64,000 nt of DNA from Agrobacterium larrymoorei (GTDB lineage: Bacteria; Pseudomonadota; Alphaproteobacteria; Rhizobiales; Rhizobiaceae): NCBI RefSeq assembly GCF_013322225.1, contig NZ_JAAMFB010000031.1, forward strand, positions 62,001 through 126,000, read 5' to 3'. The translations under genes and the position numbers were made by a program. The notes under the pieces are model-generated. The model was not told the DNA's origin. It worked only from the letters and a program-made list of their open reading frames with translations, and searched no databases. This document shows, piece after piece, positions 49,342 to 52,052 of this stretch (positions are counted from its first letter, which is position 1; the number at the start of each line of letters is the position of its first letter).

Positions 49342-50268
49342 TCATCGATTTCTGAATACCGTACAGGGGACCGAAGCGGCTCGAATCTGCTCGCATAGCT
49401 TGATGGCTTGCGCGCGCGTTTCACGTCCTATTCTGGCTGCGTAGCGAGGGCGATATCCAAAATTGCCACCTCGCTGGCGCACGATAAGCGCCCGCTCATC
49501 GTTGAGCGGTGCAGGCAGACGGCTGACGGCGCGCGTGAATAGGCTGTCCACGACGGACGGACGAAAATGTGCAGACAGTTGCACACCCCAGGGAGCCCAG
49601 TCGGCTGACCCTGCAAATACAGGTTCATTCATGCGCCTCTTATCTGCCAGTGTCACGCAGGCGTCCTGAAAAGAAAGGCGATCATCCAGTTTCGGCGCAG
49701 CATTTTCGGGAGGTGTATCCCGCCAGGTTTCGGCTGTGTGTCCGGTAATGGCAAAGACATAGTCGCGTGTCTCTATGGGTAGCCGACCTTCGGCAATGAA
49801 ACGCGAAGCTCCGCCTTCTCCAGCATTATATGCCGCAGCGGCAAGACCGAAATTGCCGAAACGAGCGGCTAGATCTTTCAGGTAAGCCGCAGATGCATCC
49901 AACGCTTCGATGACGTCGAAGCTGTTGGCCAACCCCCGCAGCCTTGCAGTGGCAGGCATGAACTGGGCTATACCTTCCGCCCCTTTGTGGCTGACCGCTT
50001 CCGGGCGGAAAAGGCTTTCTCGCCAGATGAGACGTGCAAAAAAAGCCGCGGGAACGCCGTGCCTGTCTGCAAAGTGGTCTATGGTCCGGCAAAGATCGGC
50101 GTTGAAATTCGTCTTGCTGATACAGAGGCCCGAGTTGCTGTCTTTTCCTTGATACAGGCACATCTCGGTCGGCGGCTTGTCCTCAGCCTTCAGGGGTAAG
50201 GTTGTTCCAGCCACGAATGGGAGAACGGCGATAAAGGCCAGCCAACGCCGAAAACATAGAGAACGCAT
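49342..50268 (-). CDS. Lytic transglycosylase (SLT domain)
   Basis: This exported 308-residue protein (signal peptide about 1-27, LAFIAVLPFVAGTTLPLKA) has a soluble-lytic-transglycosylase domain with the catalytic Glu in ARLIWRESLFRP, then GAEGIAQFMPATARLRGL and AAAYNAGEGG. It cleaves peptidoglycan to 1,6-anhydro-muropeptides in the periplasm. The C-terminal part (about 230-308) ends ARIGRETRAQAIKLCEQI, a SPOR-like tail in outline. It converges with the EAL gene with a 6-base gap. Confidence 0.9.
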   Translation of the reverse strand: MRSLCFRRWLAFIAVLPFVAGTTLPLKAEDKPPTEMCLYQGKDSNSGLCISKTNFNADLCRTIDHFADRHGVPAAFFARLIWRESLFRPEAVSHKGAEGIAQFMPATARLRGLANSFDVIEALDASAAYLKDLAARFGNFGLAAAAYNAGEGGASRFIAEGRLPIETRDYVFAITGHTAETWRDTPPENAAPKLDDRLSFQDACVTLADKRRMNEPVFAGSADWAPWGVQLSAHFRPSVVDSLFTRAVSRLPAPLNDERALIVRQRGGNFGYRPRYAARIGRETRAQAIKLCEQIRAASVPCTVFRNR

Positions 50269-50283
50269 TCAGCCTCTTCCTCC

Positions 50284-50562
50284 GCTAGAGCGCTTCATTG
50301 TTAAATGGAAGCAGTTCTGTTGGTTCAAACGGGATCCTCTGGTTGTTCGGACGGCGCGTGTCGTAGCAATAGCATACGGTCAAGCCGTACGAGCAATCGG
50401 AGGGTCCCGTTTCAACCAACCCGGAGGGCCGGGCATCTTTCCGCCAGGATCAAAGGCGATTGGCTCGACCGTACCTTCGGGTATGCCCTTCGCCAATCGC
50501 CTTTGCCCTGTCGAAAACCTGCTCCGGTAGAACGCTTCCATTTAACAATGAAGCGCTATAGC
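50284..50562. repeat. 279-bp element of nested inverted repeats
   Basis: An outer pair of 29-base arms (50284-50312 and 50534-50562) is complementary at 28 positions. Inside it lie three further stem-loops: 50320-50339 with 50400-50419 (18 of 20 pairs), enclosing TACGG/CCGTA at 50375-50389, and a perfect 13-bp stem AAAGGCGATTGGC (50452-50464) with 50492-50504. The last encloses GTACC-TTCG-GGTAT, a UUCG-like tetraloop. Folded, it gives a closed multi-arm cloverleaf. It fills most of the gap between two minus-strand cell-wall genes. It may be a miniature inverted-repeat element, a rhizobial intergenic mosaic-type repeat, or a structured RNA. Confidence 0.75.
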
Positions 50563-50676
50563 CGCGTATGATAGCCAGGCCTGCCTCAGAAGCACAACAT
50601 GCTCTTGACTGATGGCGTTGCAGTCCGTGCAAGGGCCTGCGCTATCGCGGAAGGCTCGTTTTGCTGTTGGCGTCCG

Positions 50677-51759
50677 CTACCTGGATGGTTGAGGTGGTTC
50701 AGGGGGCCGGGAGGCGGGAAGAGGAATGTTCTCAACATTGTCACTCATCCAGGTCGAGATATTGTGAGTGATCCCGGGTAAGTTATCGCTGAGATATGTT
50801 GAGTGTCCCGGCAGTCCCATCGGATAAAGCGCTTCGCGGCTCGCCTCGTATTCTACGCTCTTGTCGGTGCAAAGCTTGATACGCATATCTTCGGGACTGA
50901 TTTCTGGACGGTTCGTGACCGTCTCGACAGTTTCCGGTCCCTGTGTCAGTTCCCCACCGAATGCCTGCGTCATAAATTGCGCAGTACGTTCGTTACGCTC
51001 CCGCTCCGTCGTTGCACCAAGCGTAACCACCATGATCCTTTTGCCATCACGATTTGCGAGTGCCACGAAGTTTCGGCCAGATGCGCAAAGAAACCCTGTT
51101 TTAAGGCCGGTCGTTCCGCTGAACTGGGTCAAAAGAAGATTGTTGGACTTGATTTCCTTGCCATTGATGGTCACTGCGGACGGCAGGAAGAACTGCCTGT
51201 ATTGCGGGTATCGCGCATCCACGGCAAGTCCGAGCAGCGCCAGATCGCGTGCCGTCGTATAATTGGCCTTATCGAAAAGACCATTGGCATTGGTGAAATG
51301 CGAGCCTGTCATGCCCAACTGCTGAGCGGCGACATTCATGCGTTCGACGAAGGCCTGTTCGCTGCCAGCCACCGCTTCGGCCACGGCCACGGCCACGTCG
51401 TTTGCAGATGCGACGAGCATTGCGAAAAGGGCATCTTCAAGTGTCATGGTCTGGCCCAAAACGAGGCCGGATTCCAGAAATCTCTGGCTGACTGCACGTT
51501 TCGTCATGGTGACGGGGTCGGAGAGCCGGACCTGCCCCGCCTGAAGCGCCTCGAACACGACATAGGTCGACATCAACTTGGTCGTGGACGCCGGATACCA
51601 CGGATTGCCGGCCTGTTCCTGATAGAGAACACGATGACTATCGGCATCGACAACCAGAACAGGGGTGGCATTGGTCTTCCCGGCCATCAAAATGGATGAG
51701 CAGAGCAACAGTGCACGTGAAACTGTCCGTACCAATTTCGTTTCCTTCGCAAGCGGCAT
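50677..51759 (-). CDS. D-alanyl-D-alanine carboxypeptidase (PBP5/6, DacF type)
   Basis: This periplasmic serine peptidase trims the terminal D-Ala from peptidoglycan. The 360-residue product starting at ATG 51759 has an N-terminal hydrophobic signal (LVRTVSRALLLCSSILMA) and the three penicillin-binding motifs: S58-T-T-K61, S118-A-N120 and KTG in GLKTGFLC. A C-terminal extension of about 90 residues follows the catalytic domain and ends Pro-rich. The frame is open further upstream, but without a signal-like N-terminus. It lies downstream of the nested-repeat element on the map. Confidence 0.92.
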   Translation of the reverse strand: MPLAKETKLVRTVSRALLLCSSILMAGKTNATPVLVVDADSHRVLYQEQAGNPWYPASTTKLMSTYVVFEALQAGQVRLSDPVTMTKRAVSQRFLESGLVLGQTMTLEDALFAMLVASANDVAVAVAEAVAGSEQAFVERMNVAAQQLGMTGSHFTNANGLFDKANYTTARDLALLGLAVDARYPQYRQFFLPSAVTINGKEIKSNNLLLTQFSGTTGLKTGFLCASGRNFVALANRDGKRIMVVTLGATTERERNERTAQFMTQAFGGELTQGPETVETVTNRPEISPEDMRIKLCTDKSVEYEASREALYPMGLPGHSTYLSDNLPGITHNISTWMSDNVENIPLPASRPPEPPQPSR

Positions 51760-52052
51760 AAGACGGCTTGATGCCACAGCGGTGCAGCAAGATGCAATAA
51801 CGTGGGGGCCACAAGTGCCGGAAAGCTGATGGCATTGGGGATGATCGGGGTGGTTTTTCTTGCAAATAGGGTGACTGCCGCCGTTTGCACGCAATGTTCA
51901 GGGTTCTTTCCTGTGGCCTTCCTACACCCATGCGGCTGGAACATATGTGCCATCTCTTGCATCCTGCGAAAAGCGGAGGCAAATAGCGTTCAGCTTCCAC
52001 TCACCAAGGTCGATTGATTGGCTTTGGTCCAGCAAAACGGTACTGCGATATC

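Follow-up and report, generated by a model that had tools for sequence, protein, structure and literature searches.

A 275-bp repeat in a 64,000-nucleotide stretch of Agrobacterium larrymoorei DNA (the window) is most likely a non-autonomous mobile element (MITE) that IS630-type transposases moved in trans, a reading to which we assign a probability of about 0.8 from sequence comparison. This reading is preferred because the ends of the repeat resemble those of some IS630-family elements of about 1,050 bp in related genomes. An earlier reading of the letters alone (the sequence-only reading) had named insertion of a non-autonomous mobile element as one explanation of the locus. This was supported, as the repeat is multicopy, duplicates TA at four other loci, and has IS630-like ends.

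Bacterial MITEs are usually regarded as short remnants with little interior. The present family is found in many genera, shows matched changes in its interior, keeps a near-constant length, and exists naturally in one-, two-, and three-armed forms. Since arm variants occur, once at a single site, it can be asked whether the fold of a mobile DNA is selected for its movement or for a transcript, or is simply kept up by errors of replication. For the annotation of Rhizobiaceae genomes, the family supplies a defined element for stretches left blank or labeled as hypothetical proteins.

Bounds and predicted fold of the element

Comparison with other copies and with empty sites placed the element, with TA at both ends included, at positions 50286 to 50560 of the plus strand (275 bp). 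It had been drawn earlier as a 279-bp unit (50284 to 50562); the element itself was upheld, and the outermost GC at either side was reassigned to flanking DNA. The ends, about 33 bases each, pair with one another, the left terminal inverted repeat (50286 to 50318) forming the 5' side of an end stem, P1, and the right one (50529 to 50560) its 3' side. Between them stand the predicted hairpin arm A (50319 to 50420), a stub hairpin in the position of a middle arm (50421 to 50427; a 2-bp pair in the consensus structure), and the predicted hairpin arm B (50428 to 50528), all given on the plus strand. The outer arms noticed from the sequence alone, 29 bases long and with a single mismatch, are present at 50284 to 50312 and 50534 to 50562, and repeat detection placed them within a 38-nt inverted pair at 87%. 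The 20-base arm pair (18 of 20) that was noticed along with them would lie inside predicted arm A. The pattern of the element's ends has no second occurrence anywhere in the 64,000-nt window.

Arm B holds conserved internal loops and a perfect stem of 14 bp (50451 to 50464 with 50492 to 50505, enclosing 27 nt). The sequence-only reading had described this stem as 13 bp long and capped by TTCG; the stem is present at 14 bp, and by fold prediction, TTCG caps not this stem but a 6-bp hairpin nested inside it. Most other copies in the alignment have other letters at the TTCG position. The small hairpin reported between the arms is also present; in its place, other copies have a third arm, about 80 bp long. 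Folding was far stronger than chance would give for both nucleic acids. The RNA fold of the element was predicted at -169.7 kcal/mol, versus -90.25 ± 4.96 kcal/mol in shuffled sequences (z = -16.0), and the DNA fold gave a z of -13.8, with 0 of 200 shuffles as strong in either case.

The site in the window

The element is flanked by two minus-strand genes, an SLT-domain gene (lytic transglycosylase-like; 49342 to 50268, start codon at 50266 to 50268) and a D-alanyl-D-alanine carboxypeptidase-like gene (Peptidase_S11; 50677 to 51894, start codon taken from a mechanical ORF list). The GGAGG of the SLT-domain gene is located at 50279 to 50283 on the minus strand, and 2 bp separate it from the element upstream. 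A transcript starting further upstream would bear the predicted fold in the leader of this gene, and its translation or mRNA stability could change through such a leader fold. By consensus, neither a sigma-70-like promoter nor a terminator was found within 50200 to 50750, and there are no tRNA genes within the window. At the window's own insertion site, no relative aligns over both flanks; in genome G015, matches to the two neighboring genes lie at separate places.

Copies and distribution of the family

The A. larrymoorei genome holds four full copies (100, 95, 94, and 92% identity) as well as fragments. A single copy, with no covariation and no transcript, would have pointed to an accident in the sequence-only reading; the searches instead revealed a multicopy family. 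In a search of relatives, 16 of 61 genomes, including that of A. larrymoorei itself, gave matches at an E value of ≤1e-3, some of them short. Across the bacterial family, the 297 genomes searched included 22 bearers at an E value of ≤1e-10, which fell into 12 of the 109 genera, again with the own genome included; two candidates per genome were scored in this search, so that copy numbers, and perhaps the number of bearers, are floors. The plasmid collection contained 148 matching records, from Rhizobium (137), Sinorhizobium (9), Agrobacterium (1), and Martelella (1). Bearers of the family include root-nodule as well as crown-gall bacteria. When an A. larrymoorei plasmid copy was used as the query, only that record itself had most of the region. 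A phage origin was considered and rejected, with no match to the element at an E value of ≤1e-5 among 50,697 phage records and no match to the exact 28-base end pattern among viral contigs.

Eight contigs of assembly G001 (C1, C4, C5, C9, C10, C16, C20, and C22) end inside copies of the element, and these copies probably broke the assembly at those ends.

TA duplication at empty and occupied sites

At four Rhizobium loci, occupied strains have a TA-element-TA arrangement where empty strains have a single TA. For these occupied loci, 12 candidate empty-site records from much longer listings were compared, and 8 of them, spread over all four loci, showed a single TA. The empty sites were L145 and L146 (versus occupied L143) between the fucosidase and DUF4231 genes, L224 and L225 (versus L220) between metQ and metN, L227 and L228 (versus L218) between the methyltransferase and dienelactone hydrolase genes, and L229 and L230 (versus L223) between the hypothetical and LysR genes. 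The other four records were not simple, with two extra bases in L144, a deletion in L226, and a different left flank in both L147 and L231. TA target duplication is a mark of the IS630/Tc1/mariner class. The proposal of the sequence-only reading that an empty site and a target duplication should be sought thus found its answer at four other loci in Rhizobium, where TA is duplicated relative to a single TA.

L226 (NZ_CP050110.1, 640421 to 641215) has the appearance of a deletion scar, in which the last TCTA of the element is retained at the methyltransferase-dienelactone hydrolase site. From this scar, copies of the element may be lost imprecisely. At L121 (NZ_CP022668.1, near 265045), an IS110-family element adjoins the left end of a copy and stands in place of the initial base of the TA there. 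In Sinorhizobium meliloti (L235), the identical GAGAGCCT comes next after this IS110 as well, and the flanks differ from there on; the target core of this IS110 may overlap the end repeat of the element.

IS630-family elements as the likely mobilizer

The IS630 transposase domain (PF13358) was matched in 6 of the 12 genomes of the genus that were searched and in 8 of 14 further bearer genomes. At an E value of ≤1e-5, it had no match in the A. larrymoorei genome or in the copy-bearing genomes G010 and G022, and in G020, likewise a bearer of copies, there were just two defective matches, one partial and the other broken. Present activity in A. larrymoorei is doubtful because no IS630 transposase domain was found in its own assembly, and the mobilizer may be gone. 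In G253 and G021, copies of the repeat occur together with an IS630-family element having similar ends; G015 has such an element but only fragments of the repeat.

Thirty PF13358 loci were taken, and ends were scored for 11 elements (22 ends), two of which are copies of one element. The 19 unscored loci either allowed no convincing ends to be drawn or were further copies of a scored element. The scored elements are 1,022 to 1,056 bp long, with one of 1,094 bp, and have TAGAGC or a sequence near it at both termini, the ends having been chosen as inverted pairs that start with TA. Positions 8 to 27 were compared with the profile of the repeat ends against a null of 3,262 TA sites, and matched at both ends (P ≤ 0.0015) in the G015 element (two copies of one), the G021 element, and one G253 element. 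The remaining scored elements matched at one end or weakly, with inner-position P values of up to 0.14. On the preferred reading, IS630-family transposases would recognize the end repeats and cut there.

G015 carries six IS630-family elements (L148, L154, L158, and L160 to L162), each 1,051 bp long and nearly identical to the others. They were perhaps recently active.

Covariation and the level of folding

The alignment comprised 31 of 44 loci, with lengths of 272 to 279 bp and pairwise identities of 56 to 99% (median, 81%). Thirteen were dropped: ten copies, most of them near to kept rows (L002, L004, L045, L053, L070, L073, L076, L078, L121, and L186), the interrupted L122, and two copies that lacked a recovered left end (L177 and L181). 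In the predicted structure, standard pairs filled 96.7% of cells over the 31 copies. Changes on both sides were seen in 58 of 96 predicted pairs, compared with a mean of 23.0 after shuffling, and 0 of 500 shuffles reached the observed number, a count that is not a probability, since the copies are relatives of one another and also supplied the alignment behind the structure prediction. When partners were slid by one to three columns, 12 to 27 pairs had two-sided changes. The covariance analysis proposed in the sequence-only reading therefore found covariation in relatives.

The departures from standard pairing bear on the level at which folding occurs. Counted as cells rather than independent events, and with pairs whose commonest form is G-T excluded, G-T and A-C departures stood at 16:14 in stem P1, 20:4 in arm A, and 13:13 in arm B. 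A constraint on a plus-strand RNA alone would favor G-T throughout, which was seen in arm A only. Because the end stem and arm B have nearly as many A-C as G-T departures, although arm A does not, folding of the DNA would appear to fit at least as well as folding of one RNA strand. The sequence-only reading had invoked selection for RNA or DNA folding; conserved pairing was supported by the covariation, and for the RNA level the evidence divides between the G-T excess of arm A and its lack in P1 and arm B. The internal loops of arm B are also kept, with TTT/AAA in nearly all rows and a CCTGCTCC block in most. Constant length and conserved loops exceed what a plain MITE would need, which hints at a further function.

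Folding as DNA would take place while the element is single-stranded in replication or as a cruciform, and would draw the two ends close to each other and preserve the self-complementarity of the arms. We tentatively suggest, as a possibility we would not yet favor, that selection acts on the interior as a multi-arm DNA junction with interchangeable arms, in which the fold itself, rather than any coded product, makes a good transposition substrate. The arms of such a junction would fold on the single strand, hold the ends for the transposase, and be added or dropped as whole hairpins.

Arms as separable modules

Arm content was read in a different selection of 44 loci, which had been picked among the better matches from the own genome and relatives. 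There were 24 two-armed copies, 6 three-armed copies (one degenerate), 9 with arm B only (several degenerate), 2 with arm A only (one partial), 1 fusion of arms A and B, and 2 cut by contig ends. Arm B stands alone between the ends in L063 to L066 and arm A in L068, and in L063 and L068, the junctions lie where the missing arms would have had their bases. Loss of an arm would occur when replication skips the folded arm at its base. The third arm, M, is about 80 bp long, with two hairpins by prediction. It was found in G010 and on plasmids, where the 55 records containing it are all from Rhizobium; it takes the place of the stub in the copies read (L055 to L059, L232, and L234). At the fucosidase site, strain TP16 has the two-arm form and strain 23B the three-arm form. 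The two differ at other positions too, and separate insertion or conversion is a possible source of the two forms.

The end unit also occurs alone, as an arm-less imperfect palindrome of 33 bp at many sites in relatives. In the regions around single ends, the palindrome was found on both strands in 18 of 20, with L124 imperfect and L135 representing a half only. Two arm-less palindromes of G020 were absent in all aligned relatives (8 rows of 9 given for one and 9 of 9 for the other); 38 genomes matched per site, of which 9 were given, and their divergence is too high to prove TA duplication. Of the G020 palindromes L123 to L134, 6 of 12 have long open frames converging on them from either side, in some cases so near that the letters TA or TAG of the palindrome serve as stop codons.

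Weighing of alternative explanations

A coding function was considered and rejected. All 31 copies contain stop-free stretches of 68 to 91 codons, but in differing frames, and variation was alike at the three codon positions (0.138, 0.143, and 0.117), none of which stands out. The absence of a coding frame, as first read, was thus corroborated. Accidental structure in intergenic DNA is hardly credible, given the multiple copies, the covariation, and the defined ends. A structured RNA (a small RNA, a leader, or an RNase III substrate), kept for a conserved multi-arm transcript with mobility as a secondary matter, would account for the strong covariation, the conserved internal loops, and the arm A departures, which are as expected of a plus-strand RNA. 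The window copy also lies in the likely leader of the SLT-domain gene, though the minus strand would be read there. We nevertheless consider this explanation rather unlikely, as P1 and arm B lack a strand bias even though the structure was predicted by RNA rules, arms are missing from many copies, and no sigma-70-like promoter was found. Rfam is of no help to it either: no family was matched in the window at the gathering score, and eight relatives gave sub-gathering hairpin hits only when searched by E value, the best being a microRNA model at L180 (E = 9.4e-6; 43.7 bits versus a gathering score of 82). A known Rfam RNA was rejected on the same grounds.

Alternatively, the repeat could be a neutral MITE whose palindromes are perfected by template switching during replication, which would produce matched changes without selection for the fold. 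Within a copy, the left and right ends tend to vary in concert, also at fast-varying positions, and this, together with the lack of strand bias in P1 and arm B, speaks for such copying. However, template-switch copying alone would not keep the arm B loops, and the constant length of the 31 aligned copies likewise argues against it; we regard neutrality as possible but doubtful. Spread of a REP-like palindrome by a TnpA-REP (HUH) transposase agrees with the 33-bp palindrome being found alone at many places, but is very improbable in view of the TA target duplication at empty sites and the IS630-like ends. HUH elements are not known to duplicate a target. A MITE moved by IS630-type transposases remains our preferred reading.

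Comparison with known repeats

Among known repeats, RUP of Streptococcus pneumoniae is described, in the parts of the sources drawn on here, as a 107-bp repeat that has end repeats, targets that contain TA, and ends like those of IS630-Spn1 (PMC2229807, PMC3049150). As far as these excerpts go, the present element is likewise a non-autonomous repeat that targets TA and has ends resembling those of some IS630-family elements, but it differs in its length of about 275 bp, its two or three separable hairpin arms, and its presence in 12 or more genera of a single bacterial family. The Correia/NEMIS repeats of Neisseria, as excerpts of the source present them, have TA ends, 24-bp end repeats, and size classes of about 107 and 155 bp set by an internal block (PMC2229807). 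TA ends, end repeats, and size classes by internal block are shared, whereas the element is longer and has a multi-arm covarying interior, which is not part of the Correia/NEMIS description in those excerpts (PMC2229807). For BOX of the pneumococcus, the excerpted account gives a modular repeat whose content varies and whose end repeats pair within a strong fold, with ISSpn2 as the proposed mobilizer (PMC3049150). Variable module content and paired end repeats are found in our element as well; in contrast, the mobilizer proposed for BOX is ISSpn2 and not IS630-Spn1, and separable hairpins at one junction do not figure in this part of its description (PMC3049150). A passage of the 2007 article states that, apart from RUP, a resemblance between the ends of bacterial repeats and IS ends had been neither sought nor found (PMC2229807).

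The CIR repeats of Caulobacter and Brucella are, according to the same excerpts, long intergenic repeats with GANTC sites (PMC2229807). They resemble the element as alphaproteobacterial intergenic repeats, but GANTC is found in 19 of its 31 aligned copies, with 28 sites compared with a random expectation of about 33, and not in the window copy. In CIR, GANTC sites are placed at the repeat ends. Membership in CIR was rejected, as GANTC is not in every copy, and neither GANTC nor IHF motifs were characteristic of the 31 aligned copies. No description of the family was found in the titles and abstract starts of open-license literature. The family may already have been described, for example, among the Sm repeats of Sinorhizobium.

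RIME1 and RIME2 are palindromic intergenic repeats of Rhizobiaceae, about 108 bp long, with two large palindromes. The element, too, is a palindromic intergenic repeat of Rhizobiaceae, and differs from RIME in having 275 bp, two arms, an end stem, and a stub. Comparison of eight pckA-chvI-chvG regions with the 31 copies gave short matches only (best E value, 0.002). The chvI-chvG gap of L199 contains a two-palindrome repeat, about 105 bp long and clear in this one of the three gaps examined, which we take to be RIME1-like from its two-palindrome resemblance to RIME1; L199 was absent among the best 25 chvI-chvG-region matches to the element. The likeness to rhizobial intergenic mosaic elements raised in the sequence-only reading did not hold, and RIME membership was rejected: the L199 repeat and the element differ in sequence, and the L122 copy of the element has a copy of that repeat inside it. 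In L122 (positions 1001 to 1373; Sinorhizobium fredii CCBAU 25509 plasmid), this RIME1-like repeat of about 100 bp is inserted in arm B, and it is a close relative of the L199 chvI-chvG repeat.
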